DNA from: Yersinia enterocolitica
Lineage (GTDB): Bacteria; Pseudomonadota; Gammaproteobacteria; Enterobacterales; Enterobacteriaceae
Reading direction: 5' to 3'
NCBI GenBank assembly: GCA_002082245.2
Contig: NBTC02000002.1
Location: 1,426,001-1,490,000 of the forward strand
DNA: 64,000 nucleotides
The position numbers and the translations under genes were made by a program. The notes under the pieces are model-generated. The model saw only the letters and a program-made list of their open reading frames with translations. It was not told where the DNA came from and did not search any database. Shown one piece after another: positions 38,305 through 60,472 of this stretch; within the stretch, counting starts at the first letter, position 1, and each line of letters begins with the position of its first letter.

Positions 38305-39273
38305 TTACCCCTCGTTCAGTTGATAGAGCATACCACTAGTTTGATTTCGGCCATTTTTCTTTGCCTGATACAATTGCAGGTCAGTTTGACGCAGAAGTGC
38401 CGTTGACATACCGACGCTTTGATTTTCTTTGCAGCAAACCCCAAGGCTAATGCTGACAAAGGGGTAAACTGTGGAACCAGAATGTGGAATTTTTTGTTCA
38501 AGAATTTGCAGCCTGATAGTTTCTGCCATATCCATTGCTCCGGCTAACTCGGTGTCGGGGAGCAGACAAACAAATTCTTCACCACCATAGCGGGCCACCA
38601 AATCCGCAGGGCGTCGGAGAGTTTCTCGGATAACTTTTGCAATACTCCGTAAACAATCGTCCCCTGCCTGATGCCCATATAAATCATTATATTTTTTGAA
38701 AAAATCAACATCAATCATGATCATGCTAAGTGGAGTCTGGTTACGATTTGAGAGTTTCCACTCCAATTCTAACTGTTTATCAAAGTAACGCCGGTTATGT
38801 ACTTCGGTTAATCCATCTAAATAAACTAGTTGGCGTAATAAGTCGGATTGAGCTTTAAGCAATAAGTGTGTTTTCACTCTAGCCCGAACGGTGTTCCTAT
38901 TAATAGGTTTACTGATAAAATCTACGGCACCTTCGCTAAAGCAGCGAGTTTCGGTCTCTTCATCAATATGCGCAGTGACAAAGATAACAGGAATATCCTG
39001 AGTGTCTGGCGATGCCTTGAGTCTGGCACAAACCTCAAAACCATTCATACCGGGCATTTCAATATCCAGTAGAATCAAGTCTGGATGTTGACTAATACAG
39101 ACGTCGAGTGCCTGTTTACCACTGGTGGCCATACACACATGATAATCGGAAGAGAATGCTTGATAGAGCATCTGAATATTTATCGGATGATCATCAACAA
39201 TAAGGATCTTGGGCTTCCCCGTGCCGGGTAGATCTAAGGTCAAATCTTGCGAAAAAGAATGGATTATAGTCAT
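38305..39273 (-). CDS. Response regulator diguanylate cyclase (REC-GGDEF)
   Basis: 322 residues: receiver with D70 in LILLDIEMPGMNGF, then a GGDEF domain. The active site is GGEEF at 230-234, intact, and RPAD five residues upstream fits the RxxD inhibitory site for c-di-GMP feedback. It should make c-di-GMP when phosphorylated. Its ATG overlaps the stop of the hybrid kinase gene by four bases, so the kinase HPt domain is the natural phosphate donor. Last gene of the minus-strand glycan block. Confidence 0.92.
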   Translation of the reverse strand: MTIIHSFSQDLTLDLPGTGKPKILIVDDHPINIQMLYQAFSSDYHVCMATSGKQALDVCISQHPDLILLDIEMPGMNGFEVCARLKASPDTQDIPVIFVTAHIDEETETRCFSEGAVDFISKPINRNTVRARVKTHLLLKAQSDLLRQLVYLDGLTEVHNRRYFDKQLELEWKLSNRNQTPLSMIMIDVDFFKKYNDLYGHQAGDDCLRSIAKVIRETLRRPADLVARYGGEEFVCLLPDTELAGAMDMAETIRLQILEQKIPHSGSTVYPFVSISLGVCCKENQSVGMSTALLRQTDLQLYQAKKNGRNQTSGMLYQLNEG

Positions 39274-42200
39274 ATCTTCTTATCTCTCTGAGTAGGAAGA
39301 TTAACCATCAAGGCTTGGCATAACTTGATAGCGTTGGCAAAATCTAGTTGGTTTACTGCATCATTAAGAGGAGATAATTGTCCATTAAGTTGCTTAGCAA
39401 AAGTCATCATCAATTTATTCATCAGCTCTAACGCAGCCATATCTGAGTTTTGTAATAACAGCATCAAACGATTCAGTTCCAACTCGATAGGTTTTATATC
39501 AACTGCCTCTGCCACAACATTACTAGTGTTATCTTTCGATAGCATTGGGATTAGTATCATTATCCCAGATTGTATAACGGATACTTTATTTCGCATCTCA
39601 CTCAGTAATTGATTAATCGTATCTGCCGTAGGTATAGCGCCCTGGCTAAATAACTTCTCCCCCTGCCCCGCACTCAAAGAAAGGCCAGTGGCCCCCAGCT
39701 GTGCGGCAAGTCCTTTGATGGTATGTAGCAGACGAGATGCCGACAGATGGTCACCTTCAGTCAATAATGTCTCCAACTGGGTAGGGAAATTAGCCAAATC
39801 CTCACTAAGCAGCGATAACATTTTTTGGTACAGCGTAATATCGCCACCTAATCGATTAAGGGCGGTATCAACGTCAATTCCTGCCGTTGCCGCGACATTT
39901 TTTAATTCAGCAGATAACAAAACAGGAGTTATATGGCTAATCGTAGCGACAACATCAGTTTGCCCACTGTATTTCCGTATGATGTGTATTAGATTATTCA
40001 AGTCAAAGGGTTTACCAATATGGTCATTCATTCCAGCAGCAAGGCAGGCATCACGATCAGAGGCCATCGCATTAGCTGTCATGGCTATAATCGGTAAGTT
40101 TTTTAACCCAAGACTTTTTCGAATATATTTCGTCGCATTGTAGCCATCCATGACCGGCATTTGTAAATCCATCAATATCAGATCAAATGAAGACGGATGA
40201 TGTTCTAATATCTCAATTGCCTCTTTGCCATGATTGGCAATACTGACCTCTGCTCCCTCATCCTCAAGTAACTCACGTGCTATTTGCTGGTTATTCAAGT
40301 TATCTTCAACAATTAATAGCCTTATACCAGACAGTCGGTGTAAAGATTCGGTTATTGCCGGTTTCGCAACATCAGGTTGTTTGCGTTCGCTTAATGCATC
40401 AATCACTGAATCCAACAACATTGATGCTGTGATCGGCTTAACCAAATAACCATCCAGTAATGCCTGCTCTTCTTCGCTGCGCTGTAATAACATTTCGCGA
40501 TCATGGGCGGTTATCATGACAATCATAGGGCCGTTATCTACTGGCATCAGTTCACGCACACATTTACTGGTCTGCCAACCATCTAACCCCGGCATTTGCC
40601 AGTCAATAAAGAGCGCCCCGTAGGTAATACCACTATCATGCTGCTGTCTCATCAATTGCAATGCATCATTGCCACTGGTTGCGACATCAACGGTCCATTT
40701 TAGTGATTCCCCCATCTGTTTGATCAGGTCACAGGCTGTCGGATTATCATCAACAACCAAGACTCGTAAATTATTCAATGCCTGTGCTCTGTTTACCAAA
40801 GTGTTTGGTGTTTCATTATTAATAACCAGATTGGTATAAGAAGGTAGCGACAGCGTTATGGTGAAATGAAATAGGCTCCCTTTACCCGGTTCACTTTCTA
40901 AGGTGAGCGTCCCGCCCATCAGTGCAACAAAGCGCTGACTTATCACTAGCCCTAAGCCCGTGCCACCAAACCGGCGCGTTGTCGAGGCTTCTGCTTGTGT
41001 AAAACCACTAAAAATACTTTCTTGATTCTCTGGTGCAATGCCAATTCCGGTATCGCGCACCCCAAAATGCAACGTAACGTGATGGCTATCCTGTGTGATA
41101 ACTTTGATGAAAAGCACCACCTCACCAAGTTCGGTGAACTTCAGCGCATTGCCCCCCAGATTGGTTAATATTTGCTGGAGTCGCATGCTATCGCCTTCAA
41201 CAAACTGGGGTAGTGAAGGGTCAATATCAAATAAGACCTCAACCTTTTTAACCTTCAGATTGCTCGATAAGATAACCGCCAAATCACGCAACATCACACG
41301 AATATCAAACGGGATACATTCCAGTTCCATTTTACCGGATTCGATTTTGGAGAAGTCCAGGATATCGTTCAGCAAGCGCAGCAAGGTGCGCGTGGCGGCT
41401 TCACTTTTAACCGCATAATCAGCTTGTTTCCTATCAAGACCCGTCCTACGTAGCAATGTCAGCATGCCAAGGATGGCATTCATCGGGGTCCGTAGCTCAT
41501 GACTCATATTGGCCAAAAATGCAGATTTGGCCTTATTGGCTTCTTCAGCAGCTTCTCTTGCTGTTTTCAGGATATTCTCGGCCTCGCGTTGTTGAGTAAT
41601 ATCCCGATTAATCCCCATCATCAACATTGCTTTGCCACTTTCATCCCGTTCAACCGTTCCAGTTGATTGAATAAAGTGAACTTCATTTCTCACCACAATA
41701 CGGAAAACCTGACGATAGACACTTTCATTTTCTAACGCTGCTTTTATTGCACTTTTAACGTCGGGAATATCCTCTGGATACAAAAGGCTATACCAATACG
41801 CCAACGGGATATCGGCATTGTGTAACTCCTCAGGGATCCCATAGATATTATTCATCCGCTCATCGAAAGAAAGCGTACCTTCTGGAATGTTCCAGGTCCA
41901 AATACCTAACTCAGCAACATCCGCCGCTCTGACTAATTGATTTCGAGCAATAATCAGATTGGCTTGCTGATTTTTATTGGTTGTAATATCAACTTGAATG
42001 GAAATATATCGCTCAATCTGGCCAGTACTATTGTTAAACGGAGCAATCGTGGTATCGACCCAATATAAAGAGCCATCTTTAGCTTTATTACAGATTTCTC
42101 CACGCCACGAGATCCCATTAGCAATGTTATGCCACATCGATTGCCAAAAATCAGTCGAATGTGTATGAGAATCAACTAAGCGGTAAGTCTGCCCTATAAG

Positions 42201-43838
42201 TTCTTCGCGACTGTAACCACTGATAGTACAAAATGCGTCATTAACATCGGTGATTATCCCATCCCGGTCTGCAGTAGAGATAATACCGTGTAAATTAAGG
42301 GTGCTGAGTAAGGCATTATTTTCACGTAAGGCCGCTTCAAGACGTTGATAAGTCGCTTTACGTTCACTGATATCCGACTCAATCGCCATAAAGCCGATAA
42401 GTTCACTCTTATCGTTATAACGCGGTTGAATCTCCAGCTCAATCCAATATTCTTGCCCCGATTTAGCGCGATTGACTATTTCACCTTTAAATGGCTCTCC
42501 GGCATCTAACGCAATTTTCATCTCACTTGCTACGCCTTGGTCTGTATTACTACATTGCAGTAATTTCCCCGGCGACTTGCCGAAAGCCTCGGCTTGACTG
42601 TATCCGGTAATACGTTCAAAGCCCTCGTTAACCCAGACGATATTACGTTTTACATCGGTAATAACGACGGCGTTAGAGGTGTTCTTGGCCACTAAAGCCA
42701 GACGTTCAAGATCTGCGGTCATATTCCGCGCCAGCATCTCTGCCCGATTACGTCCACTGATTTGCTGGCGAATAAGTAAAGCCAATGCCGAACTTAGCAA
42801 AAGACCAAAAGCAAACACCAACCAAGGTGCATAACGTTCGGTTAGCGCTTCAAACACTGGTGTGCTGCTGATTCGCAGTGTCATTTTTCGACCAGGTAGT
42901 GGCAAGACGCTGGTATTGTGAAATATTCTGGCAGCTATGGCTTCATCATCATGCTCTTCGTCCGGTATGAAATTGGCGTATTTACTGCCATCTGCATCGA
43001 AGATCATCGTTCTATTAGATAAATCATTGAGACTATCAAACAATTCAACATCCACTCGCCCATTCATAAACTCGGGAATATCACGTAATAGATCAGCAAT
43101 CACAATGGGTGAATAGAGTAGACCGACCAATGACGCCTGCCGTTCAGCAAGTGTCGTAGGATAGGTACCCGACTTATAAACCGGGACAAAAAGTAATGTG
43201 CCGGGAGTTTTAACATTAGACTGAACCAGATGAATAGTGCCAGAAAGAGTGGGTTTTCCGCTGTTTATTGCCAACAATGCGGCTTCTCGTCTGACCGACT
43301 CAGAGCCAATATCAAGCCCCTCTGCGCCTTGGTTTTTTTCTGCTGGTGCAATGTATTTAATAATATACAAATCATCATGCTGTTTATCCTGAAGTTGCCG
43401 CAAAGAAAACGTCGGCGCACCGTCAGCTCGGGTATCAGTAATAAACGCATTTAACTGGCTGCGCGACACCCGTTGAATAAAACCAAATCCCCTCACGCCA
43501 GGGAACTCCACCGGCAAATTACGCGAAGCAACATAAGCATTAAATTGCTCGCGGGTTAAATGACTGTTGGTAGCATAAACACCTCTTATCCCATTCAACC
43601 CATATATTGGCTGAGAGAAACGTCGCTCAACTTCTCCAGAAACCCTATCAACATTACGTTGAAAATCGATTTTTGCATTGGCTTCAATTTCGTTATAAAG
43701 CCACCATGCTCCCGCACCTGAAATAACCAGTCCAATAATGAAAATAACCAGTGGCAGTAAAATATTTTGTTGTAACTTAAATGAAAGCCAAGATGAGGAC
43801 AATTGCTGCGTATGGGCATTGAATGGAGAAGGATTCAT
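39270..43838 (-). CDS. CHASE-PAS hybrid histidine kinase with two receivers and HPt
   Basis: 1522 residues. Two helices (about 27-49 and 333-355) flank a periplasmic CHASE domain. Then come three PAS/PAC units (about 370-760; NAVVITDVKRNIVWVN, GIISTADRDGIITDVN, WTWNIPEGTLSFDE), HisKA with H780 in NMSHELRTP, HATPase_c, receiver 1 with D1079 in FIDWQMPGLDG, receiver 2 with D1224 in LMDLQMPVMDG, and HPt with H1372 in LLHTIKGLAAQLG. It can run a complete internal relay and pass phosphate to the REC-GGDEF partner. A 122-bp gap to the GH2 gene upstream could carry its own promoter. The ligand of the CHASE domain is unknown. Confidence 0.92.
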   Translation of the reverse strand: MNPSPFNAHTQQLSSSWLSFKLQQNILLPLVIFIIGLVISGAGAWWLYNEIEANAKIDFQRNVDRVSGEVERRFSQPIYGLNGIRGVYATNSHLTREQFNAYVASRNLPVEFPGVRGFGFIQRVSRSQLNAFITDTRADGAPTFSLRQLQDKQHDDLYIIKYIAPAEKNQGAEGLDIGSESVRREAALLAINSGKPTLSGTIHLVQSNVKTPGTLLFVPVYKSGTYPTTLAERQASLVGLLYSPIVIADLLRDIPEFMNGRVDVELFDSLNDLSNRTMIFDADGSKYANFIPDEEHDDEAIAARIFHNTSVLPLPGRKMTLRISSTPVFEALTERYAPWLVFAFGLLLSSALALLIRQQISGRNRAEMLARNMTADLERLALVAKNTSNAVVITDVKRNIVWVNEGFERITGYSQAEAFGKSPGKLLQCSNTDQGVASEMKIALDAGEPFKGEIVNRAKSGQEYWIELEIQPRYNDKSELIGFMAIESDISERKATYQRLEAALRENNALLSTLNLHGIISTADRDGIITDVNDAFCTISGYSREELIGQTYRLVDSHTHSTDFWQSMWHNIANGISWRGEICNKAKDGSLYWVDTTIAPFNNSTGQIERYISIQVDITTNKNQQANLIIARNQLVRAADVAELGIWTWNIPEGTLSFDERMNNIYGIPEELHNADIPLAYWYSLLYPEDIPDVKSAIKAALENESVYRQVFRIVVRNEVHFIQSTGTVERDESGKAMLMMGINRDITQQREAENILKTAREAAEEANKAKSAFLANMSHELRTPMNAILGMLTLLRRTGLDRKQADYAVKSEAATRTLLRLLNDILDFSKIESGKMELECIPFDIRVMLRDLAVILSSNLKVKKVEVLFDIDPSLPQFVEGDSMRLQQILTNLGGNALKFTELGEVVLFIKVITQDSHHVTLHFGVRDTGIGIAPENQESIFSGFTQAEASTTRRFGGTGLGLVISQRFVALMGGTLTLESEPGKGSLFHFTITLSLPSYTNLVINNETPNTLVNRAQALNNLRVLVVDDNPTACDLIKQMGESLKWTVDVATSGNDALQLMRQQHDSGITYGALFIDWQMPGLDGWQTSKCVRELMPVDNGPMIVMITAHDREMLLQRSEEEQALLDGYLVKPITASMLLDSVIDALSERKQPDVAKPAITESLHRLSGIRLLIVEDNLNNQQIARELLEDEGAEVSIANHGKEAIEILEHHPSSFDLILMDLQMPVMDGYNATKYIRKSLGLKNLPIIAMTANAMASDRDACLAAGMNDHIGKPFDLNNLIHIIRKYSGQTDVVATISHITPVLLSAELKNVAATAGIDVDTALNRLGGDITLYQKMLSLLSEDLANFPTQLETLLTEGDHLSASRLLHTIKGLAAQLGATGLSLSAGQGEKLFSQGAIPTADTINQLLSEMRNKVSVIQSGIMILIPMLSKDNTSNVVAEAVDIKPIELELNRLMLLLQNSDMAALELMNKLMMTFAKQLNGQLSPLNDAVNQLDFANAIKLCQALMVNLPTQRDKKI

Positions 43839-43960
43839 ATAATATCTATACCCTTATAATCACTATTGGCTAAAGCATAGGATCACTCTGTAATTTAAGA
43901 TAGTATTGGCCACAATCAAATCTAGCTTAAGTGTTCTCTGCTAATAATAAACAGTATTAG

Positions 43961-46183
43961 TTAGGGTTGAATGTAAATTTGTAGTTCATTGTGGCCTAAT
44001 ATCTCACCCTGTTCGTTAATAATGTCACTCATTACATTCATTGGTTGAACGCTACGAGGTATAACTTGCAATTCAATCACCTTTTGACCGCTATCCGCCA
44101 TTAATTTTATGTTCCGCGATCCTTTAGATAAAATCATACCACTTTGCAATATTTTCCAATGTAATGATGCCTTTTGATAGTTGAACCAACGGTCGTTGAT
44201 GGCCCATAAATCAATACGCCCTCTCTGCCCCTGCACCCAATTTTCTGTTTTCGGATCTATAGAGGGTAAAACGGGCTGATAAGCTCGCTGCAAAGCAAAA
44301 TAACCCGGCTTAGGATGGCGGAGATAGTCCACCACGCCCCAGTTAATTGACGGCCAGTTTTCAGTAAACATAAAGTGAAATAATGCAGCAACGGGTTGAT
44401 AACGTTGGCGTCGATAACTCTCTGCGGCGAGTTGGATTAAACTTGCCTGATACTGTTGGCTGTTCTTGATAAACGTATTGATATTTGGCCCGCGAGTCAC
44501 TTTAGCTAATTCAAATGTCTCATGAGGTTGAAAGTTATGGTATGCCCAGATACGCCAGCCTTCATCTTGTTTATCCGCCGTTTTGGGCCACAGCTCAGCG
44601 TGCGGAATTATCGTTTTTAACGTTGCCAGGTCAGGTAAGGCTTGTGCGCCAAACTCGCTGATGATTGAGGTAGTTGCCGGTTTAAGATGATCACTTTTCT
44701 GCCCTGAGTACCACCCTTGCCAGTAGTGTTCAGCAGTGGACGAGTAAGCATGAGTGATCCGGCTATGGTCCTGACTGAGCACCTGCGCGACGCTCGCGGT
44801 TAACGCCCGGTTGATGTCAGGCCGCCAGTCTGAATAACGATATTGCATCCATGTGGCATCCCAGGGCGGTTCATTGTGCCCAGACCACAATACAATCGCT
44901 GGATGGCTGCCAAACTGCTGTGTCATATCCGCGGCCTGCCTGGCAGCCTCTCTGGCAAAAGAGGCTGAATCGTCATATCCCCATTGCAGTGGAAAATCTT
45001 GCCAGAGCAGTATCCCCATCTCATCAGCCAGGTCGTACAACGCCCGCCCAGCCACATGGGCATGTACTCGTATGGCGTTGATGTTCGCCAGCTGCATCAT
45101 GAGCAAGTCATGGCGATAATCTGTCGGTGTCAGGCTTCCCAGCCACGGGCTACCAATATAGTTCGTCCCCCTTATGAATAGTCGCTTGCCATTGATTGAC
45201 CAACTTTGCTGTTGGGGGTCTATCGCAATTCGCCGTAAGCCAGTGCGAACATGAGTCACATCCATCATGCCTAAACGGTCTGAGAAACTGACCTCCAGCC
45301 GATAAAGATTTTGTTTCCCATGACCAGACGGCCACCACAATGCGGGGTTATCAAGCAGAAAATTAGCGGTGAGAGTTTGTGCATTATGCTGACTGGCAAC
45401 CAATGAAACACTTTTCTCCAGTTGATAAGATTGGCCGATAAAATTATCGGGTATCAGGCGTAGCAACATAACAACGGGGCGGTTGTGGTTAGCACGATAA
45501 TCCAAACTCACCTTCAGAATCGGATGTGCAAGCCCCCGTGACCAGTCAGGCACGGCCAGTACATTGTCTATAACAGCGCCACGGCTGATATGTGACGTTA
45601 CCGGAGCCCAGATACCGCCTGAATTAGCATCTTGTCCGTGATCCGACCACGCGCCACCGGGCCGAGTATCATGATGGTTGAACACGCCCTTAATCAGTTG
45701 CTTACGAAATGACCAAATTTTGCCCGGAGTCTCGTAAGGGCTATCTACACGCATAGCCAGCACATTATCTATTCGGGCTATATCGGTGATATCGATACTG
45801 AACCGCTGAAAATACCCCTTATGTTGCCCCGCTCGTTGACTGTTGAGCCAAATATCCGTTTGATAATCGACGCCATCGAATACCAAGGTCGCCATATCAT
45901 CGGTATCTAAAACCGGTAATGTAAACCGGGTGCGATACCATAATACGCCTTGATGATCGACGCCCTCACTGTACCAATTAGCGGGCACTTTCAACTGTTG
46001 CCACTGGCTGTCATCCAGGGTGTCACTCCAGGCGTCAGAAGCTGGCGGATTGCCATCCCGTATTCGCCACTGACCGGACAAATCTAAAGTGGATGGCAAC
46101 TGAGCAACAACAACCGACGAGATAAGTTGTAAAAGAAATCCCAAACTTAAAATAGAAGCCCTGCACCAGCAATTAATGTTCAT
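43961..46183 (-). CDS. Exported GH2-family glycosidase (beta-mannosidase/glucuronidase-like)
   Basis: 740 residues from the ATG at 46183, which overlaps the upstream DUF3131 stop as ATGA. A signal peptide ends SSVVVAQ. The GH2 sugar-binding (WRIRDGNPPASDAW), immunoglobulin-like and TIM-barrel parts follow. The acid/base E438 is in WSGHNEPPWD, the nucleophile E510 in IISEFGAQALP; both look intact. SEFGAQ is typical of the beta-mannosidase-like branch, but GH2 specificities vary. An exported glycosidase within a polymer operon most likely trims or recycles the product. An in-frame ATG at 46228 is inside the previous gene. Confidence 0.85.
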   Translation of the reverse strand: MNINCWCRASILSLGFLLQLISSVVVAQLPSTLDLSGQWRIRDGNPPASDAWSDTLDDSQWQQLKVPANWYSEGVDHQGVLWYRTRFTLPVLDTDDMATLVFDGVDYQTDIWLNSQRAGQHKGYFQRFSIDITDIARIDNVLAMRVDSPYETPGKIWSFRKQLIKGVFNHHDTRPGGAWSDHGQDANSGGIWAPVTSHISRGAVIDNVLAVPDWSRGLAHPILKVSLDYRANHNRPVVMLLRLIPDNFIGQSYQLEKSVSLVASQHNAQTLTANFLLDNPALWWPSGHGKQNLYRLEVSFSDRLGMMDVTHVRTGLRRIAIDPQQQSWSINGKRLFIRGTNYIGSPWLGSLTPTDYRHDLLMMQLANINAIRVHAHVAGRALYDLADEMGILLWQDFPLQWGYDDSASFAREAARQAADMTQQFGSHPAIVLWSGHNEPPWDATWMQYRYSDWRPDINRALTASVAQVLSQDHSRITHAYSSTAEHYWQGWYSGQKSDHLKPATTSIISEFGAQALPDLATLKTIIPHAELWPKTADKQDEGWRIWAYHNFQPHETFELAKVTRGPNINTFIKNSQQYQASLIQLAAESYRRQRYQPVAALFHFMFTENWPSINWGVVDYLRHPKPGYFALQRAYQPVLPSIDPKTENWVQGQRGRIDLWAINDRWFNYQKASLHWKILQSGMILSKGSRNIKLMADSGQKVIELQVIPRSVQPMNVMSDIINEQGEILGHNELQIYIQP

Positions 46184-47556
46184 TTCGATGCCGCCTGTCG
46201 ACGGATGACTCTTTCTTGCGGCAGGCATAATTGTGGTCGTGAAAAAATATCACTCATGCGCACATCCAGATATCCCGCGGTAGAGTCGCTATTAATTAAA
46301 CTCCCCGCCGCTTTATAGAGCAGCGTTTCCAATACCATAGCGTTTGTCGTCAGACTAATTGTTTTGTTATAGGCACCATTATTTTCATAACGCCCCTCAT
46401 ACCATCCGCGTTGTTCATCATACTGCATCTGAGTCAACTGCATTAATGCATCGGTATAAGGGCTATTCCACAAAACCCATAAGCCAAAAACTACACGGGT
46501 TGATACCAACGCCAGGTCAGGATGAAATTGCCCGTCTTCGCTAATCGTATTCCAATGATAACCGTTAGCGAACACCGTATCGTAAACGTGATATGGCGCA
46601 ACTGAGGTGAAATAATCACTACGTGCCGTCAATATATGTTCTTTTTGCCACCGTATTTCTTGTACCCGATAGATATTATCTATCCGTTTTTTTTGCTGTT
46701 TAAATATTGGGGTGCTTTTTAATTCCATTACAGTAAGTAAATAAGGCAAGCTGACGACAATAGAGGGTACATAGGTTGTTCGAGCATCTCTGATATCAAA
46801 ATCGATAGGTATGTCATAAATAAACGTGGTGTTATAGGGAAGATTAGCTGATATTCCTACAGGAAAACCCCACAGACCAAACGCACCAGCGGTATATTCG
46901 CTATAACCCAAAACGCCTTCGGGTTTGGCTATAAATCTGCCATTAACAGTCGCTGATTTCAGTAACTCACCATGACCATCAATAATCTGACAGAAATTCC
47001 ATCGTAATAGGACCTTATCCAAATACTCAGCATATTCAGGATAAAAACGCACAACAACTTTCAAACCTATCATTAAGCGGCCGATATCTTGTGCAGACCA
47101 CCCCAGTGGTTTTGGCTGGTGAGCATAATCAATCATCTGTCCGTTGGCGGTGTTGTAAAGCAGATTTGGCGTTTTTCCCTCCACCAAAGGTAAATGACTT
47201 ATTGTTGCCAATAATAGTGTGAGGCGCTGATCAAACTCCTGACGATTGATCAACCCTAATTGGGCTGCTGCGGTTAATGTGACAAGTGTGTCGCCGATTT
47301 GCCAGAGATTAACAACCGGGTAATTATCCAAAGAATTAACCAACCCAGTACTCACTTGCGTATTATTAACAAAGTAACGCCAAGCTACTTTCGCCCACAA
47401 TTGTTCATTATCAGATAGCACACCACTACGGGCAGAATAGGCAACAGAGCTGTGAGTAATACTGCTTGCCACAAACATACCGCCCGTAAATGCAGCACCC
47501 AGTAGCCCAGCACCAATAACCCAGGCAAAAGCGGCGGACTTCACTGTTTTGCGCAT
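46180..47556 (-). CDS. DUF3131 protein, divergent paralogue 1
   Basis: 458 residues with an N-terminal hydrophobic segment (about 10-30) that serves as signal anchor. DUF3131 pattern: YFVNNTQVSTGLVNSLDNYP, LGWSAQDIGRLMIGL, EGVLGYSEYTAGAFGLWGF, APYHVYDTVF. Compared with paralogues 2 and 3, two acidic positions are lost: MWD becomes LWQ (Q86) and SEPYIL/TESYIL becomes VSLPYLL (L270). If those residues are catalytic, this copy would be inactive, perhaps a binding or scaffold partner. The alternating repeats of helical blocks suggest an alpha/alpha-barrel like many glycosidases; that is inference. Start overlaps paralogue 2 by 16 bases. Confidence 0.85.
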   Translation of the reverse strand: MRKTVKSAAFAWVIGAGLLGAAFTGGMFVASSITHSSVAYSARSGVLSDNEQLWAKVAWRYFVNNTQVSTGLVNSLDNYPVVNLWQIGDTLVTLTAAAQLGLINRQEFDQRLTLLLATISHLPLVEGKTPNLLYNTANGQMIDYAHQPKPLGWSAQDIGRLMIGLKVVVRFYPEYAEYLDKVLLRWNFCQIIDGHGELLKSATVNGRFIAKPEGVLGYSEYTAGAFGLWGFPVGISANLPYNTTFIYDIPIDFDIRDARTTYVPSIVVSLPYLLTVMELKSTPIFKQQKKRIDNIYRVQEIRWQKEHILTARSDYFTSVAPYHVYDTVFANGYHWNTISEDGQFHPDLALVSTRVVFGLWVLWNSPYTDALMQLTQMQYDEQRGWYEGRYENNGAYNKTISLTTNAMVLETLLYKAAGSLINSDSTAGYLDVRMSDIFSRPQLCLPQERVIRRQAASK

Positions 47557-49133: not shown

Positions 49134-49142
49134 AAAACCTTC

Positions 49143-52330: not shown

Positions 52331-52433
52331 TATCACAACCTCAGTCAATCCATGAAGATAAGTGAGATAAATCAGCCCATTTTAAGGGGGAGTTCGAAGA
52401 GCATTATTTTATGAATAAACATAATTTTTACGC

Positions 52434-52895
52434 CTACTCTTCTATTTTCTTTATCAGCGATAGATAATTGATGCCCTCTTCCACTTTATAACTGATGTCA
52501 TCAACGGCATTAAACATCATCATCAATCCCATCCCATTTTCTGGCCAAGAATCCGGCGCTGACAACTCAGGAATATGAGACAACCCACTTTTATTTTGCA
52601 AAAATTTTGTAGGTATAGGCTTTCCTTTATCTTGTAAGGTCACAGCTAGTTGATTATTGCCATAATGCATCACAATAGTAATATCTTGGGTGGCATCATA
52701 GTTAACACCATGCTTTACAATATTGATAAATGCTTCATTTAATGCAAGTTCCATAGCATAACTGCTAGATGAATCAATCTTTAAGGGTTGAATAAATTGT
52801 AGTAACTTTTCATGTAAAACATTCAGGCTAGACAAGGAAGCAGGCAAACATATTCTCATTAACCAGCCCTGTGAGTCACGCTGGTGATAACTCAT
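52434..52895 (-). CDS. RsbW-like serine kinase / anti-sigma-type ATPase
   Basis: 153 residues with the HATPase_c fold of anti-sigma kinases: N-box NEAFINIVKHGVNYD, then LQDKGKPIP and GMGLMMMFNAVDDISY. It is expected to phosphorylate the STAS protein encoded two genes upstream and to release its target when the STAS protein is dephosphorylated. No sigma factor gene accompanies it, so the target is another protein, perhaps the glycosyltransferase or nucleotidyltransferase. Its ATG overlaps the nucleotidyltransferase stop by four bases. Confidence 0.87.
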   Translation of the reverse strand: MSYHQRDSQGWLMRICLPASLSSLNVLHEKLLQFIQPLKIDSSSSYAMELALNEAFINIVKHGVNYDATQDITIVMHYGNNQLAVTLQDKGKPIPTKFLQNKSGLSHIPELSAPDSWPENGMGLMMMFNAVDDISYKVEEGINYLSLIKKIEE

Positions 52896-54055
52896 ATCAA
52901 CGTATCTTTATGTAGGAATTCATCGAACAAAGATTTCTCTGCCATAATAATATCTTTACGCCGTTTATCATCAATGAGCCAGTTTAAACCCGCCTCAGAT
53001 AAATCAATGGACATACCGTCTGGTGAGATAACTTTCCCAGCAAAAATCATCTGTTGATGCAAATGCGCAATACCCCCGACCCGGGTATAATCAGCAATAA
53101 AACTCTGATCGATAACAGCTCCCTGCTCTAATAAACACCCCGCACCAATAATTGTAGGCCCTTTAATCGTTACGCCAGACTGTATTTCTGTACTACTACC
53201 AATATAGACTGGCCCTTCAATATCTAAGGTCGAAAAGTCGGCTTTAACATTAAGTCCACACCAGATTTGAGGTGCAATTTTAATTCCCGGCATGGGATAG
53301 TCGGGTAAATCTTGATTAAGGATCATGCGATTTACACGCCAAAAATCTTGTAGAGACCCAATATCAACCCATTGGAAGGGCAAGGCAATACCGTAGAAAG
53401 GAACACCTAATTCAGCAAGTTTGGGGAACAACTGACTACCAATGTCGTATTCAACGCCATCAGGAATATAATCGAATATTTCTGGCTCAAAAACATAGAT
53501 TCCGGTATTGGCATTGTTTGATAATGCATCCTCGGTTTTAGGTTTTTCTTGAAACTTACTAACTCTACCCTGCTCATCAGTAACAACAATACCGTATTTG
53601 TTTACCTGATCTGCTGAGACTGGGCGCATCACCAAGGTTGCCACACTTTTTCTGGCTCGATGGAAAGCCAATACCTTATCGAAATCTACATCAATTAATG
53701 CATCACCACAGACAACGACAAAAGTTTCATCAAAAAAACCTGAGAAATTTTGGATGTGTTTCATTCCACCCGCTGACCCCAGAACATTGTCAACAAAAGT
53801 ATTACCCTCCATAATACCTTCGTAGGAGTAACCTATTTCTACTCCCCAGGCATGGCCATCACGAAAATAATTCTCGATGTCCACAGATAGATAGCTGGTA
53901 TTCACCATTAACTGATTAAAACCATATTTTCTTAAATGCTCAATAATCGATTCCATAATAGGTTTTCGAATCAATGGAATCATTGGCTTTGGCAGTATGG
54001 TGGTCAGTGGTCTGGCTCTGGTTCCTTTCCCTGCAGCAAGGATCATGGCTTTCAT
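52892..54055 (-). CDS. Sugar-phosphate nucleotidyltransferase with left-handed beta-helix tail
   Basis: 387 residues. The N-terminal nucleotidyltransferase domain opens MKAMILAAGKGTRARPL, with LPKPMIPL following, VVVCGDALIDVDF (about 112-124) as metal site and FQEKPKTED. The C-terminal part (about 265-355) has hexapeptide repeats such as GPVYIGSSTEIQSG and GPTIIGAGCLL. This is the layout of mannose-1-phosphate guanylyltransferases and some glucose-1-phosphate transferases. It should make the NDP-sugar used by the GT2 enzyme; with a glycogen phosphorylase in the operon, Glc-1-P is an attractive substrate, but GDP-mannose is equally possible from sequence alone. Confidence 0.87.
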   Translation of the reverse strand: MKAMILAAGKGTRARPLTTILPKPMIPLIRKPIMESIIEHLRKYGFNQLMVNTSYLSVDIENYFRDGHAWGVEIGYSYEGIMEGNTFVDNVLGSAGGMKHIQNFSGFFDETFVVVCGDALIDVDFDKVLAFHRARKSVATLVMRPVSADQVNKYGIVVTDEQGRVSKFQEKPKTEDALSNNANTGIYVFEPEIFDYIPDGVEYDIGSQLFPKLAELGVPFYGIALPFQWVDIGSLQDFWRVNRMILNQDLPDYPMPGIKIAPQIWCGLNVKADFSTLDIEGPVYIGSSTEIQSGVTIKGPTIIGAGCLLEQGAVIDQSFIADYTRVGGIAHLHQQMIFAGKVISPDGMSIDLSEAGLNWLIDDKRRKDIIMAEKSLFDEFLHKDTLI

Positions 54056-54075
54056 AAATAGGTATTCCTTACAAA

Positions 54076-54423
54076 TTAAGGTGCTACGGAATGCATCTGC
54101 TGTAATGTATCGGGTTGATTAGCACCGATAGTAAATATCCTATCCATCCGGGTTAATTTGAACATTCCGTGGATATTATTATTCAGTGAGCAAATAGCCA
54201 GTTCACCTTTCCCATTTAAGGTCTTCAACAACGAAACCAGAGCACCTAAACAACTACTGTCGATGAAATCTACCCGACTAAAATCCAATAAAATATTTTT
54301 GGCTCCCTGAGCGATCATTGCTTGTATATCTTCCTTAAATTTCAGGGAAACTGATGCATCGAGTCGCCTGATCAAGGGGGTTATCACCAATACATTGTCA
54401 ATTGTCTGAGTTTCAAAGTTCAT
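54076..54423 (-). CDS. STAS-domain anti-sigma-factor-antagonist protein (RsbV-like)
   Basis: 115 residues, a single STAS domain. The phosphorylation site region reads RVDFIDSSCLGALV; S56 is in the place of the serine phosphorylated in RsbV and SpoIIAA. It should cycle between the phosphorylated state (by the RsbW-like kinase) and the free state (by the REC-PP2C phosphatase encoded ten bases upstream). HsbA of Pseudomonas and SypA of Vibrio are Gram-negative examples of such proteins that control biofilm polysaccharide. Confidence 0.92.
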   Translation of the reverse strand: MNFETQTIDNVLVITPLIRRLDASVSLKFKEDIQAMIAQGAKNILLDFSRVDFIDSSCLGALVSLLKTLNGKGELAICSLNNNIHGMFKLTRMDRIFTIGANQPDTLQQMHSVAP

Positions 54424-54433
54424 TTTTTCTTCC

Positions 54434-55720
54434 TTACAATGCTGCCAGGAGAGGGGAATTGTTATTGCGTTCGATCACCAGTAACGAGATATCATCACTA
54501 AATACAGAACGCCCATTCTGAATATCACTTTGATGTTCATCTTTTTGTACCGGATGCCAGTATTTCAGTGCCTGCTGTACTTGCCCAAAAACAGTTTGCA
54601 CACAGTCACGTTGACTTGCGGCCAGTAAGTCTTGTAATCGTCGTTCTCCAAATAGCTCTTGCTCAGGGTTTTCACACTCAACAATGCCATCGGTGAATAA
54701 ATAGAGCCGATCACCCGAAGCAAGAGTGAACGCAGTGTCCTGATAGTCCATCGAATCAATAAGTCCAACCGGTGCACCACCGTCACCAATAGGGGTAATC
54801 TGACCTGAACTACTGACAATAAAGGGGGTCGGATGCCCAGCTTGGCAAAGCACCCCACCCGCTGTTTGAACATCGATAACGCCATAAATAAGAGTGAAAT
54901 AGCTGGCTATATCATCATTCTCTATACAAAAACGGCGATTAAGTTCGCTCACAACTTTGTGTGGCGGGGTAATTAGATAACCAGAGGGAGTATCTGCCAG
55001 TGAAATCAGTAAGTTATCTACCGTGCGCCCATTAAGAAATTGGCGTGCAACTGACAGTGAGAGCATCGCCGCAGCCACGCCATGCCCTGCAACATCAATA
55101 CTATAAAAACCAATGTGTTGATTTCCCAGTTGGAAAAAACTTAACAAGTCACCCGAAACATACGCGGAGGGTATAAACATCCATTCGGCTTGAAAACCAC
55201 TCACCATTAGCTTTTCTGCTGGCAAAACACTACGTTGCAATTTTGCCGCAGCCTGCAAGTCATCTTCTATTTGTTGGTAGGCTTGGGACAGTTTCTGATT
55301 ACGGGCATCGAGGGTTGCCTCTAGCATTAATATCCGTTCACCTGCATGTAATCGGGCGCGTAGCTCACTTTGATTTATCGGCTTTGACAGAAAATCATCG
55401 GCGCCCGCATCTAATCCTGCGATCAAATCCTCGACGGATTGCCGCACGGTTATCAATACTAAGTAAATATACCTATCGGAATAATGTTTACGGATAGTAG
55501 TACAGAGTTTCAACCCATCCATAACTGGCATTTCCCAGTCACTGATCACCATATTGATGGCATTATTATCAAGGATAGCCAAAGCATCTTGGCCATTTTC
55601 TGCTTCAAAAACAGTAAATTGCCAATTTTTTAGTAGATTAACCAGTAAAAAGCGATAACTTGCTGAATCATCAACAACAAGAATAGATGTCACACCAGTA
55701 GCGGAAGGATGTGGTTGCAT
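54434..55720 (-). CDS. Response regulator with PP2C/SpoIIE phosphatase (RsbU-like)
   Basis: 428 residues: receiver with D61 in MVISDWEMPVMDGL, a short coiled linker (about 130-165), then a PP2C-type SpoIIE domain with YVSGDLLSFFQL, IDVAGHGVAAAMLS, GAPVGLIDSMDY and LFTDGIVECENPE giving the metal-binding aspartates. It would dephosphorylate the STAS protein when its receiver is phosphorylated, joining an external signal to the partner switch. Same layout as Pseudomonas HsbR. The donor kinase is not obvious; the hybrid kinase of the same block is a candidate. Confidence 0.92.
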   Translation of the reverse strand: MQPHPSATGVTSILVVDDSASYRFLLVNLLKNWQFTVFEAENGQDALAILDNNAINMVISDWEMPVMDGLKLCTTIRKHYSDRYIYLVLITVRQSVEDLIAGLDAGADDFLSKPINQSELRARLHAGERILMLEATLDARNQKLSQAYQQIEDDLQAAAKLQRSVLPAEKLMVSGFQAEWMFIPSAYVSGDLLSFFQLGNQHIGFYSIDVAGHGVAAAMLSLSVARQFLNGRTVDNLLISLADTPSGYLITPPHKVVSELNRRFCIENDDIASYFTLIYGVIDVQTAGGVLCQAGHPTPFIVSSSGQITPIGDGGAPVGLIDSMDYQDTAFTLASGDRLYLFTDGIVECENPEQELFGERRLQDLLAASQRDCVQTVFGQVQQALKYWHPVQKDEHQSDIQNGRSVFSDDISLLVIERNNNSPLLAAL

Positions 55721-55877
55721 AAGTTACCCAAGAGCTTCGTGTAAACATAATTTATCAAACATCATCGTCGATAGAGGATGCTCAACGTCCCTGAACCTTT
55801 CATACCCACAAAAACATTATGCTCACTTAACTATTAATAGCGTAATTAAGCGTAGCACAGATTCTTACACCTCCAAT

Positions 55878-56759
55878 TTATAGGGGTAATGTCCAACTGA
55901 GATTTATTGTCCCACTACGAAAATTAGCATTTGCATTCTGCCGCCACGGGTAGCGAGTCCCGGTGTAATTGCCATAAAAAAGCGACCAGGACCCCGGAGC
56001 GTAGCCAGACGTATAGCCAAAACTATAGGTATAATCATAATTCCAAGGTTGCTGCTGATTCTTGTTAGGGTAATAAAACGCGGACAAACGCAAAAAATAG
56101 TGTTGTTGTAAGGTATAGCCACAACTCCCTAAAAAACTGTTCTTATTTTCTTTGATAGTTGATGAAGCGTCAGAGTAATAACGAGGCACATAGCTATAGC
56201 CAACTTGACAAATCAGTGAGTCATCTTTGTTAATCAATAATGCAGACTCCACCGTCTTGGGTAAGGTAAATTTATAGCCCAAAGTCCAAGAGCCTTGTTC
56301 AAACCGTGTTCTTTGAGCACCTGTCGTAGGGAAGAAACTATTATTATCGTTGTAATTACCATAAACCAAACTAAAAGTACCCGGATGCCAATCGTCATAA
56401 CCAAAACTATAAACAAAATCGGTACTGTATTTACTGGTATTTTGTAATGGAACCCGAACCGTCATATTGGCAAAAAGATAACTTATTGGGGAATACTGCA
56501 CACTAAAAAGTCCCCGCTGATTTAGTTTATATATTTCCTCCGAGCTATATTTCCCTGTAGGTACATTAACCATCTTTTTTTTAAGTGGCGAACTATAGGT
56601 TAATGCCGTTGAAAATGTGTTCTCATCACCAGAAAAAAGGCGTGACCAAGGGCTGGTAAATAATTTAACAGCTGGTGGATTAGTCGTTTCACTCGCAGTC
56701 ACCAGCGGGCAGAAAAAGAGTCCACTAAGTAATACCGTGAGTGATTTGTAATGTTTCAC
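55878..56759 (-). CDS. Outer-membrane beta-barrel protein with internal duplication
   Basis: 293 residues with a signal peptide cleaved near VTASE. The mature chain is rich in alternating aromatic/polar strands. One unit occurs twice: YSFGYDDWHPGTFSLVYGNY (about 123-142) and YSFGYTSGYAPGSWSLFYGN (about 244-263), each followed by about 20 residues and an aromatic strand, the second ending the protein as SWTLPL. That implies duplication of a barrel half or repeat of hairpins. No family recognised. ATG overlaps the glycogen phosphorylase stop by four bases. A role as outer-membrane channel or anchor for the polymer is plausible but inferred only from location. Confidence 0.75.
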   Translation of the reverse strand: MKHYKSLTVLLSGLFFCPLVTASETTNPPAVKLFTSPWSRLFSGDENTFSTALTYSSPLKKKMVNVPTGKYSSEEIYKLNQRGLFSVQYSPISYLFANMTVRVPLQNTSKYSTDFVYSFGYDDWHPGTFSLVYGNYNDNNSFFPTTGAQRTRFEQGSWTLGYKFTLPKTVESALLINKDDSLICQVGYSYVPRYYSDASSTIKENKNSFLGSCGYTLQQHYFLRLSAFYYPNKNQQQPWNYDYTYSFGYTSGYAPGSWSLFYGNYTGTRYPWRQNANANFRSGTINLSWTLPL

Positions 56760-59206
56760 TTAAGGTTGTCCTCCCTCCAAATATCCTTGCTGTATCCACG
56801 AATAGTCCTGTCGCTGGAAAACTCTCCCATGCCACTTATCGTGTTTAATGCTCGCTTGTGCCAACTGTAAGTATCGCTATAATCGGTCAATGCTTGATAT
56901 TGTGCGTAACAATAACTATCAAAATCAGCCAAATGGAAATAGTGGTCACCGTGACTCACCAACATATGAAATATCGGTGAAAACAGGTTCTTATCGGCAT
57001 GAAAAGCACCTGAAATAAGTGAATCAACAGTTTCTTTAAGTTCTGTATTAGATAAATACTCATCATATGATGACCGTCCTTTAGCTCTTTGCTCAGCAAT
57101 TTGCTCCGCAGACAAACCAAAAACATAGAAATTCTCATGACCCACAGCATCTCTAATTTCAATATTAGCGCCATCTAGCGTTCCGATAGTTAAAGCACCA
57201 TTCATCGCCAGCTTCATATTGCTGGTACCCGATGCTTCAGTACCCGCAGTAGATATCTGCTCTGATAAGTCAGCGGCTGGAATAATATTTTCCGCTAGCG
57301 AGACTTTATAGTCTTCTAAAAAAACCACTTTTAGTTGCTCATTGACTCTAGGATCATTGTTCACTTTAAGAGCAACTTGATTAATCAACTGGATGATCAA
57401 TTTGGCCATGGCATAACCCGGTGCAGCTTTGCCCGAGAATATATGGACTTTCGGCGAAATAGTTCCTCTTCCATTCAGCATTTTCTGGTAAAGGTTTATC
57501 ACATAGAGGATGTTGAGTAATTGCCGTTTATACTCATGAATTCGTTTAATCTGACAGTCGAACATAGCTTCGGGATTGATAATTATTCCTTGCTGACGCG
57601 TAATTATCTGACTTAATTTTAATTTATTAAATTTTTTAATTTCAGCCAGTTCGGCAATAATGTCACGTTCGTTCGCTAACGATTTAAGTTTAGTCAAAAG
57701 AGTCAGGTCGGTAACCCATTCATGGCCTAAGTGACAATCCAGAAAAGTCGATAACCGAGGATTAGCCTGCTGAATCCAGCGACGAGGTGTAACACCGTTG
57801 GTTTGATTAGTGAACTTCTCTGGCATTAAATGATAAAAATCGGGTACAAGATTCGATTTAATTAATTCCGAATGAAGTTTAGCCACTCCATTCACTTTGT
57901 GACTACCAATAATAGCAAGGTAGGCCATGCGAACTTTCTTTTCAGGCGTCTCTTCAATCAAAGACATTGATGCTAATAAATCTGCACGTTCAGGACGCCA
58001 TCTATGTATTTCCAGTAAGAAACGGCGGTTGATTTCATAAATAATTTGTAGATGTCGAGGCAGCAACAACTCGAATAAATTAACTGACCACTTCTCTAAC
58101 GCCTCTGGCATTAAAGTATGATTGGTGTAGGCGCAAACCCGTTGTGTCAAATCCCAAGCGATATCCCAATCAACAGTATGTTCATCTACCAATATTCTCA
58201 TTAGCTCAACAATAGCTAGGGCCGGGTGGGTATCATTAAGTTGAATGGCTACAAAATCCGGCAACTGGTTAATATCACTGGAAAGTAAGAAGAAATCATG
58301 CATGACATCACGTAATGTACAAGCCACCAGAAAATACTCTTGTGTTAAGCGTAATTCCTTCCCTGCCAACACTTCATCGGAGGGATAAAGCACTTTAGAG
58401 ATATTTTCCGATGCTATTTTTTGATTAACAGCATTCAGATAATCACCATGATTAAAGATATGAATATCAAATGAATCTGAAGCGCAAGCACTATATAAAC
58501 GCAACGAGTTTACGGTATGATTAATATAACCTGAGACCAGATAGTCGTGAGGCACACCAATAATTATTTTCCAATCCATCCACATTGGATTGTAATTTCC
58601 TTGCTGGTCCTCTATTTCGACTATGCGCCCATACAGCGGAATTATCATTGCCTGACTTTGATGTTCTATTAGCCAGGGTGAGTGTGCAGAGTGCCAATCA
58701 TCAGGCTTCTCTATTTGTTGTCCATCCTGAATTTGTTGGTGAAACAAGCCATATTCGTATTTTATACCGTGACCAGAGCCAGCAATATCCAAGGTTGCCA
58801 TTGAATCAATGAAACATGCAGCCAGGCGCCCCAACCCCCCATTACCTAATGCTGCATCTTCTTCACTTTTTACAATAACTTCAAAATCTACCCCAAGAGA
58901 TTCTAATGCGGCTTTAGCTATCTCCATTATCCCTTGATTTATTAAGTTATTCCGCAGAGATTGACCAATTAAAAACTCCATAGAAATATAATAGATACGT
59001 TTTTTTCTTGCCTGGTGATGTCGTTCCCGAGTGTTAAAATAATCATCAGTTTGGTTGCGTCGCACGACCAGTGCTAATGCACTAAAAATGTCACTGGATG
59101 ATGCTGTTGATAGTATCACTCCGAGAGAATATTTCAGTTCATAAAGTATGCTATTACGTAGCTTGCTAATCTGATTCTTATCTGAAGTCGATGGAGTATT
59201 TTTCAT
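56756..59206 (-). CDS. glgP: Glycogen/alpha-glucan phosphorylase
   Basis: 816 residues, standard length. It shows FIDSMATLDIAGSGHGIKYE, ALGNGGLGRLAACF, IQLNDTHPALAIVELMR, QIKRIHEYKRQLLN and the pyridoxal-phosphate lysine in GTSNMKLAMNGALTIGT. The enzyme releases glucose-1-phosphate from glycogen or maltodextrin. It has no neighbouring glgBXCA genes here, so this is probably not the housekeeping copy. Sitting in a glycan operon, it can feed Glc-1-P to the nucleotidyltransferase. Cytosolic; no signal peptide. Confidence 0.93.
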   Translation of the reverse strand: MKNTPSTSDKNQISKLRNSILYELKYSLGVILSTASSSDIFSALALVVRRNQTDDYFNTRERHHQARKKRIYYISMEFLIGQSLRNNLINQGIMEIAKAALESLGVDFEVIVKSEEDAALGNGGLGRLAACFIDSMATLDIAGSGHGIKYEYGLFHQQIQDGQQIEKPDDWHSAHSPWLIEHQSQAMIIPLYGRIVEIEDQQGNYNPMWMDWKIIIGVPHDYLVSGYINHTVNSLRLYSACASDSFDIHIFNHGDYLNAVNQKIASENISKVLYPSDEVLAGKELRLTQEYFLVACTLRDVMHDFFLLSSDINQLPDFVAIQLNDTHPALAIVELMRILVDEHTVDWDIAWDLTQRVCAYTNHTLMPEALEKWSVNLFELLLPRHLQIIYEINRRFLLEIHRWRPERADLLASMSLIEETPEKKVRMAYLAIIGSHKVNGVAKLHSELIKSNLVPDFYHLMPEKFTNQTNGVTPRRWIQQANPRLSTFLDCHLGHEWVTDLTLLTKLKSLANERDIIAELAEIKKFNKLKLSQIITRQQGIIINPEAMFDCQIKRIHEYKRQLLNILYVINLYQKMLNGRGTISPKVHIFSGKAAPGYAMAKLIIQLINQVALKVNNDPRVNEQLKVVFLEDYKVSLAENIIPAADLSEQISTAGTEASGTSNMKLAMNGALTIGTLDGANIEIRDAVGHENFYVFGLSAEQIAEQRAKGRSSYDEYLSNTELKETVDSLISGAFHADKNLFSPIFHMLVSHGDHYFHLADFDSYCYAQYQALTDYSDTYSWHKRALNTISGMGEFSSDRTIRGYSKDIWREDNLK

Positions 59207-59245
59207 TTCTAGCCTATTTATAAGATTGAGTCAAAAAAATACAAA

Positions 59246-60472
59246 TCAGTTAGGAATAAATCTCCTACCGACATCATATTTTGCTAATAGCCATAACATC
59301 ATTAAGGCACAGAGATGAACCAATGTATTTAGCAACCATGCCCGATGCCATAAACCAAAATCAACTACCTGACTAACCAATAAGACCACATACACGTGGA
59401 TAATAAAAACATACAAAGAATGTTGGCCTAATGTTATTAAAAACCAACCACACATCTTATTTATTGGTTTCCAAAAATAACTTAACACCAAATAACATGT
59501 TGTTAGCAGACTAAAATCATTAATAATACGCAGTGGACCTAATGCATTCTTTTCAGCAAAGTTCAGATAGAACCAATTGAAATTTTTCGTATTTATGATA
59601 TGGAGCATCGTGTTATAGGGCATAAATGGATTGGTATGATTCTGTGCAATAAACATCATTACTAATGTAAATAATACAACAACTGACAAACTCCAGAATC
59701 CAGCCTGAGTATGGGCTAAAGAAAGCAACTCTTCTTTGTACCAACCAATCGTCATCCCCAAGACATAAATAAATTGCCAAGCCAAAAATGGAAAAGCAAA
59801 CTCAAATTCCGCTGATGTAACTCGTATCCCGGTAATATGGTAGATAATATATAATGCCAGAGATAACAGCAGCAATACACCTACCCATCGGCGTTGCAAT
59901 AAATAGATAAAAATAGGACTGGCCAACAGCAGATAGAAATATAGCCCCAAAATCTGGCTCTGATGAGGCCCGATTTGTAAGTAGAGCACCATGTTAAACC
60001 AAGATTCTTTTAGCTGGTCGTAAAGTGGATATAACGTATAACTTACGTTTGAAAAGCGATCGGTAAAATGGGTTACTTCGAAAGTGTTTATGAACGTCAG
60101 TTTAGCTAGAAGTAAAATACTAAGGATGATCACTATATTAACCACATATATTTTTGCTGCTCGTCGATATAGTGCATAGCTTATAGTTAGCAGAACTTCT
60201 TTTTTTAAACGCTGGCGATTGATTACACCCAACATAAATCCCGAGAGAATAACGAACCCTTCCGCGCCGGTTGTCAGGCCAAAACGCTCCCAAGTAAAGA
60301 TATTCAATAGCGACATCACTTCAATGTGGGCTACAACCATCATCACCAAAGCAATGCCCCGCAGCAGATCAATCCTTAAATCACGCTTATCTGATGATAT
60401 ATAACGAAACGATTTTACCCAAGAAAGTATTGTCCTACATTTATCTTCAAGTACAGAAAATGCGTGAATCAT
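59246..60472 (-). CDS. OpgC-like membrane acyltransferase
   Basis: 408 residues with about ten membrane helices. The start LRIDLLRGIALVMMVVAHIE and LTTGAEGFVILSGFMLGVIN (about 34-53 and 66-85) are typical of the OpgC family (OpgC_C), which succinylates osmoregulated periplasmic glucans in proteobacteria. H in VVAHIE and E in GAEGFV fit the conserved acyltransferase residues. It is the first gene of the block, 39 bp before glgP. No opgGH genes are present, so the acceptor may be the polymer of this locus. Confidence 0.88.
   Translation of the reverse strand: MIHAFSVLEDKCRTILSWVKSFRYISSDKRDLRIDLLRGIALVMMVVAHIEVMSLLNIFTWERFGLTTGAEGFVILSGFMLGVINRQRLKKEVLLTISYALYRRAAKIYVVNIVIILSILLLAKLTFINTFEVTHFTDRFSNVSYTLYPLYDQLKESWFNMVLYLQIGPHQSQILGLYFYLLLASPIFIYLLQRRWVGVLLLLSLALYIIYHITGIRVTSAEFEFAFPFLAWQFIYVLGMTIGWYKEELLSLAHTQAGFWSLSVVVLFTLVMMFIAQNHTNPFMPYNTMLHIINTKNFNWFYLNFAEKNALGPLRIINDFSLLTTCYLVLSYFWKPINKMCGWFLITLGQHSLYVFIIHVYVVLLVSQVVDFGLWHRAWLLNTLVHLCALMMLWLLAKYDVGRRFIPN

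Follow-up and report, generated by a model that had tools for sequence, protein, structure and literature searches.

Several described bacterial systems share components with the locus analysed here, a run of 14 consecutive minus-strand genes (positions 38305-60472; genes A-N of Table 1, transcribed in the order N to A), contained in a stretch of 64,000 nucleotides from Yersinia enterocolitica (assembly GCA_002082245.2, contig NBTC02000002.1, positions 1,426,001 to 1,490,000 of the forward strand), hereafter the window. Cellulose synthase (bcs) loci, like this one, encode a membrane GT2 enzyme with the DDG, DxD, S/TED and F-x-V-T-x-K motifs; here, however, BcsB, BcsC and PilZ are missing, QRFKY is found in place of the QRIRW of the solved BcsA (7lby), and a partner switch and DUF3131 (PF11329) genes are present. 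With opgGHC the locus shares an OpgC-type acyltransferase and, probably, the processing of a beta-glucan outside the cytoplasm, but no OpgG is found among the 14 genes by Pfam, and no OpgH model among the NCBIfam matches of the GT2. Cgs, according to the accessible part of its literature, is a single inner-membrane protein of about 2800 amino acids with cytoplasmic domains, whereas the locus encodes separate GT2 and DUF3131 proteins with export segments, the GT2 being of BcsA type, and no GH94-type domain (Pfam). From the families GH144, GH162 and GH192-GH194 of the beta-1,2-glucan enzyme clan (SGL clan, clan GH-S) it differs by having several paralogues inside a synthesis locus. The RsbU/RsbV/RsbW systems similarly bring together phosphatase, STAS antagonist and HATPase genes, but here no sigma factor accompanies them, and the set is tied to a glycan synthase across phyla. 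SypE/SypA and HsbR/HsbA are further partner-switch systems.

A like gene set is listed, without function, as block 3b of Klebsiella pneumoniae NTUH-K2044 (PMC12974863, 2026), which ranks among the top four blocks in a population gradient of that species whose underlying trait is not known; in the accessible text this is a population-genomic listing, with no product, fold or mechanism. Our own sequence comparison with block 3b was limited to the K. pneumoniae barrel fragment P0302. DUF3131 genes also appear in tables of Brucella and Shewanella papers, and the accessible parts of the literature naming the family give no function for it. Literature searches on the locus found no named product, and a search with PF11329 returned no publication. 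Another candidate, the sfz cluster for twisted stalks (PMC8250860), was dropped as a match, since neither "DUF" nor "GH2" occurs in its text. A preliminary description of this DNA had called the system undescribed; this stands in that no product is named in the literature searched, and has to be qualified by the K. pneumoniae listing. We group the locus with the synthase-dependent glycan systems, with an enzyme family found described nowhere in that literature.

We read the locus as a system for a periplasmic or extracellular beta-glucan, in which a switch-controlled GT2 makes the chain and DUF3131 proteins process it, and give this reading an even chance. The product is most likely a beta-1,2-linked, or beta-1,2-containing, glucan, either linear or cyclic.

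The role of DUF3131 had been called unknown in the preliminary description; no function is named for the family in the literature searched, but its fold, and in part its sequence, now assign it to the beta-1,2-glucan enzyme clan. Computation shows an (alpha/alpha)6 barrel, as in that clan, resembling GH144, GH162 and GH189. Sequence identity ranges between 8 and 15% against GH144, GH162 and GH192-GH194, and between 11 and 14% against solved members of GH189, GH144, GH192 and GH194; no family-level similarity to these last four was found, and none of their members was returned by phmmer, run with the type a protein against the PDB up to E 10. Residues were mapped by using HMMER, local and global hhalign, MAFFT with two bridging proteins (L042 and L043) and a spacing test. 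In the profile alignment D171 of DUF3131, invariant in 42/42 rows, pairs with the aspartate of the SSV-D motif of Cgs, which is D1104 by counting along the motif. Mapped through Cgs, and not through CpSGL, D171 provides the acid at the E142 position of CpSGL, the candidate base in GH144 and GH192-GH194 (PMC12102758); the position is consistent across mapping methods. The clan residues of XcSGL are E239, F286 and Y367 (PMC12102758), the first of which aligns with DUF3131 E228 by MAFFT, in an uncertain register. The main text of the same paper contains no DUF or Pfam name.

Residue counts were made on 193 DUF3131 proteins, i.e. 190 open reading frames (ORFs) of 330-650 amino acids, selected from 209, plus the three of the window, covering 74 of the 77 DUF3131-positive loci described below; types a, b and c were assigned by nearest identity to the window's three proteins. 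Both acidic positions are present in all 70 type b and in 40 of 48 type c proteins. Their spacing is 55-65 residues in 162 DUF3131 proteins, against 86 for D160/E246 of SkSGL (numbering of PMC12102758). Comparison with GH193 (SkSGL) and with Group 4 of the clan (PgSGL4), which lacks the E142 acid (PMC12102758, accessible part), was made through published residue descriptions only. An N-terminal hydrophobic segment is found in the DUF3131 proteins, weakest in gene D. The two bridging proteins, gammaproteobacterial and 690 and 728 amino acids long, match the Cgs cyclase at E 1e-61 and 7e-61 and DUF3131 at E 2e-12 and 4e-13 in a two-sequence search; judging from these scores, they seem to lie between the two families.

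The distribution of the locus was analysed by scanning a one-genome-per-species collection for relatives of the GT2. The best 80 of 382 were retained, each with up to 10 kb per side; genes were counted by single domains (the receiver domain being common to the GGDEF and SpoIIE response regulators), and neighbour pairs were taken from earlier gene labels. DUF3131 is found in 77/80 loci, and in 73 pairs a same-strand DUF3131 gene comes directly after the GT2. STAS and HATPase are each present in 70 loci and SpoIIE in 69, the complete switch in 66. The barrel (59/80), GH2 (54/80), kinase core (51/80) and OpgC (38/80) come next, followed by the nucleotidyltransferase (26/80), the phosphorylase (10/80) and GGDEF (1/80, a count low by design, since a GGDEF gene placed as in the window falls outside the 10 kb flank). 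Three loci (L123, L126 and L130, from Sphingobium and Rhizorhabdus) have no DUF3131 in the fetched stretch and keep a complete switch. The switch is incomplete in 14 loci, nine of which have flanks short of the full 10 kb. The GT2 and DUF3131 unit reaches Ignavibacteria, Desulfoluna, Burkholderia and Photobacterium.

In a separate set of 60 genomes, PF11329 is present in eight, own genome included, and the GT2 profile at E 1e-40 finds the identical eight (Fisher p = 2.9e-9 with the own genome left out, the genomes being related). All 14 genes, in the same order, occur in 5 of 24 other Yersinia genomes; G009, which belongs to these five, shows split readings for the GT2, the type c DUF3131 and the hybrid kinase. 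The stretches fetched from two more genomes (G026 and G055) show a different arrangement of these genes, and no glgP was found there. When 369 genomes were drawn evenly from the class, with the own genome among them, 12 gave PF11329 matches, full-length only in the own genome and in G195, where the GT2 adjoins the DUF3131 gene; the other ten show partial matches, mostly in open frames of 1771-2956 amino acids. Among 72,556 plasmid records, 26 match the type b protein, and in 14 of these the match spans at least 80% of its length. A DNA search for the GT2 gave no match in E. coli genomes.

These data show that the genes form a co-conserved unit, as the preliminary description had proposed to check, and that its core is GT2, DUF3131 and the partner switch, often together with barrel and GH2. 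The same description had seen all steps of polymer synthesis in the locus; since the core does not include glgP, the nucleotidyltransferase or GGDEF, that full set is one lineage's arrangement. The glycan locus is also carried by Sphaerotilus, Thiothrix and Leucothrix (L082, L083, L098, L101, L108, L111 and L120), filamentous bacteria some of which are sheathed. This hints at a connection with sheath glycans, no more than a lead, and a literature search on Thiothrix sheath glycan genes found nothing usable.

The GT2 is related to BcsA but has a motif of its own; it keeps the gating loop and lacks a PilZ domain. Its profile finds BcsA at E 6e-47, and its score against the CelA model TIGR03030 (181.9 bits) is below the cut-off of 699.1. 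DDG, DxD and SED motifs are present. At the position of QRIRW in BcsA, QRFKY is found in 74/80 GT2 proteins and QRYKY in one, the pattern being unmatched in five. The gating-loop pattern F-x-V-T-x-K matches 66/80; only 70-101 residues remain downstream, which leaves no room there for a PilZ domain.

The partner-switch gene set, as the counts above show, travels with the GT2, and the switch recognized in the preliminary description is complete in most GT2 loci. It is of Rsb type by Pfam: a SpoIIE phosphatase, a STAS protein with a phosphoserine motif (present in 70/70 STAS proteins) and an HATPase_c_2 protein, which resembles RsbW/SpoIIAB in an NCBIfam comparison. The HATPase gene lies within 150 bases of the GT2 gene, on the same strand, in 24/70 loci. 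No sigma factor was found among the 14 genes in the Pfam tables; a target encoded elsewhere is possible.

According to the model that we favour, the GT2 (G) would polymerise UDP-glucose and extrude the chain; its supply of glucose-1-phosphate and sugar nucleotide may come, in the Yersinia form, from M and I. The DUF3131 proteins, exported or anchored through their hydrophobic segments, would cut, transfer or cyclise the emerging chain, with types b and c as the probable catalysts and a degenerate type a protein as a likely binding partner in some of the lineages. Trimming may be due to C and acylation to N, while L could provide the passage across the outer membrane. Sensor B and regulator K would act on J and H, and the phosphorylation of J would decide whether H restrains G or another partner, so that the switch would stand in for the cyclic di-GMP (c-di-GMP)/PilZ gate of cellulose synthase; in Yersinia, A would add c-di-GMP. 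A more specific proposal, made tentatively and with less confidence than the general reading, is that DUF3131 is an undescribed glycoside hydrolase or transglycosylase family of the beta-1,2-glucan clan, acting on the nascent chain as an active enzyme and, in many enterobacteria, degenerate partners, to yield an unseen beta-glucan, and that the BcsA-type synthase is gated by a serine-phosphorylation switch and not by PilZ/c-di-GMP. For a Pfam family of unknown function, the analysis provides a fold and proposes a reaction as well as two possible catalytic residues; it also links the family with a subfamily of synthases and a set of regulatory genes that recur from Ignavibacteria to enterobacteria. 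If the switch does gate the synthase, this would be a different way of controlling a processive glycan synthase.

Several observations weigh against this model. A fold alone does not show activity. Above noise, just the N-terminal third of DUF3131 aligns to Cgs; the profile alignment with GH144 is not significant (probability 2%); and in the PDB profile search the hit following 8wy1 is an unrelated pilin (E 0.009), with Cgs itself at E 0.7. The catalytic acid depends on the method, being E228 by MAFFT and E234/235 when helix ends are matched by eye; no counterpart of the GH189 nucleophile (E1442 of TiCGS) was found in DUF3131 by the mapping; one or both acids are missing in 31/193 proteins; and Group 4 of the clan, according to the accessible part of the clan paper, has no known substrate (PMC12102758). 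The GH2 motif patterns match 33/54 (acid/base) and 46/54 (nucleophile) proteins. The kinase activity of the HATPase stays putative, because the N-box pattern tried matches just 32/70. Five loci with full 10 kb flanks have no switch (L056, L058, L068, L075 and L103, i.e. two Serratia, two Edwardsiella and one Kapaibacterium) and count as genuine counter-examples over that distance. A metagenome protein, P0189, a single cluster on a 3.6 kb contig, joins GT2 and HATPase, either by a genuine fusion or through an error in the reading frame; no such fusion was found in the 80 loci, where eight GT2 ORFs exceed 640 amino acids without a second domain of the set. Lastly, the GT2 is nearest to cellulose synthase among the libraries used, and the linkage assignment is for this reason tentative, DUF3131 pointing to beta-1,2 and GT2 to the cellulose-synthase branch.

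The same proximity to BcsA, together with the conserved DDG, DxD, SED and gating-loop motifs, would suit a cellulose-like system, in which the GT2 makes a beta-1,4- or mixed-linkage glucan, DUF3131 acts as a BcsZ-like endoglucanase and OpgC acylates. BcsZ does have the wider (alpha/alpha)6 fold in common with DUF3131, at ranks 28, 31, 32, 39 and 49 (TM 0.39-0.44); in acetylated cellulose loci, the product is acylated by other acyltransferases. We consider this arrangement unlikely, though the strongest competitor as to the product. That OpgC and DUF3131 remodel glucans made elsewhere, by OpgGH or Cgs, with the GT2 providing a side chain or primer, is less probable still: the genome has one MdoG and a Cgs-size frame of 2903 amino acids, yet its sole OpgC_C match in the locus, but OpgC is present in fewer than half of the 80 loci, and the unit extends to lineages as distant as Ignavibacteria and Photobacterium, with DUF3131 as the gene after the GT2 in 73 pairs over the 80 loci. 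The hydrolase-like families and the phosphorylase could also suggest a glucan-degrading locus with the GT2 as a bystander. This we regard as very improbable, given that GT2 and DUF3131 occur together in all eight carrier genomes, that TIGR02093 identifies the phosphorylase, found in few loci, as an alpha-glucan (glycogen) enzyme, and that no transporter or SusCD family is encoded by the 14 genes (Pfam).

A fourth alternative concerns the target of the switch only, which may be a transcription factor or a diguanylate cyclase and not the synthase. Partner switches of sigma factors, and HsbR/HsbA of Pseudomonas, act on such other targets, the HATPase resembles RsbW/SpoIIAB, and the last gene of the locus is here a GGDEF regulator; conversely, the locus has no sigma factor gene, GGDEF is found within the flanks of a single locus, and the switch stays beside the GT2 in the three loci devoid of DUF3131. 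This alternative has real weight, its probability being somewhat short of even.

The genes of the locus are reported in Table 1, where Pfam was searched at E 1e-3 with a cut-off of 20.3 bits for DUF3131; the three DUF3131 genes match PF11329 at 334, 427 and 458 bits. The preliminary description had counted thirteen genes, many overlapping: the run and the overlaps are confirmed, the latter at 6 of 13 junctions (4 bases each at A/B, F/G, H/I and L/M, 16 at D/E and 49 at C/D), the number is 14 by the ORF listing. Its gene assignments (GT2, three DUF3131, GH2, OpgC, glgP, nucleotidyltransferase and signalling genes) agree with the Pfam matches, the outer-membrane barrel it claimed is borne out by the predicted model of L, and no family of bcsB, bcsC, pgaB or wza-like partners, absent according to it, appears in the Pfam tables of the 14 genes.

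Table 1. Genes of the minus-strand glycan locus of Y. enterocolitica (window coordinates).
Gene	Position	Strand	Product or features	Evidence
A	38305..39273	-	Response regulator with GGDEF (diguanylate cyclase) domain	Pfam GGDEF 167 bits, Response_reg 108 bits
B	39270..43838	-	CHASE/PAS hybrid histidine kinase, receiver and Hpt domains	Pfam
C	43961..46228	-	GH2-family glycosidase, N-terminal hydrophobic (export) segment	Pfam GH2 domains
D	46180..47556	-	DUF3131 type c, N-terminal hydrophobic segment	PF11329 334 bits
E	47541..49133	-	DUF3131 type b, N-terminal hydrophobic segment, most constant type	PF11329 427 bits
F	49143..50507	-	DUF3131 type a, N-terminal hydrophobic segment, (alpha/alpha)6 barrel of beta-1,2-glucan enzyme clan	
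G	50504..52348	-	Membrane GT2 synthase, BcsA-related, QRFKY replacing QxxRW, gating loop present, no PilZ	Pfam
H	52434..52895	-	HATPase_c_2 (RsbW/SpoIIAB-like) partner-switch component	Pfam HATPase_c_2 67 bits
I	52892..54055	-	Sugar-1-phosphate nucleotidyltransferase with hexapeptide repeats	Pfam NTP_transferase 172 bits
J	54076..54423	-	STAS-domain antagonist, motif D-S-S-x-LG	Pfam STAS, TIGR00377 above cut-off
K	54434..55720	-	Response regulator with SpoIIE-type phosphatase	Pfam SpoIIE 122 bits, Response_reg 98 bits
L	55878..56759	-	Outer-membrane-type beta-barrel, no Pfam family	Predicted model
M	56756..59206	-	Glycogen/alpha-glucan phosphorylase	Pfam Phosphorylase 1014 bits, TIGR02093 1098 bits (above cut-off)
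N	59246..60472	-	OpgC-type membrane acyltransferase	Pfam OpgC_C 172 bits

Among the accessory genes, the nearest solved relatives of C are named beta-mannosidase (E 6e-43), I reaches the cut-off of none of the 25 listed NCBIfam models, and the model of L has a mean pLDDT (predicted local distance difference test) of 81. Known OpgC enzymes carry out succinylation. Elsewhere in the host genome (5.07 Mb) two CelA score above cut-off, the single MdoG is located at C2:459464, away from the locus, and a Glycoamylase (PF10091) match at C2:2196087-2196716 falls in the Cgs-size frame; the locus is therefore an additional glycan system.

The GC content of the locus is 42.1%, versus 47.0% for the remaining window. 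The window flanks differ from those of the five other Yersinia loci, three of which have the upstream flank in common, so that the locus sits at different sites. It is found 1 kb from a tRNA-Asn gene with an integrase-like fragment, recognized by eye: a short ORF (37478-37660) similar to the N-terminus of a tyrosine integrase, directly after the tRNA gene and adjoining the glycan locus. Neither direct repeats marking an island end nor a matching repeat at the other end were found. Two tRNA-Asn genes (25193-25268 and 37241-37316) are identical (76/76), as are 12 bases before and 4 after them. Between them (25830-36800) lie a LuxR-type regulator, a hybrid kinase with solute-binding domains and a chaperone-usher fimbrial cluster, and this stretch looks like an inserted unit. 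On the other side of the locus, an MFS-type transporter (60858-61597) is present as two overlapping short ORFs, only the second of which matches MFS_1 (profile 69-184 of 347), and a large adhesin/autotransporter-like ORF, recognized by eye, starts within 62183-64000 and continues past the window end.

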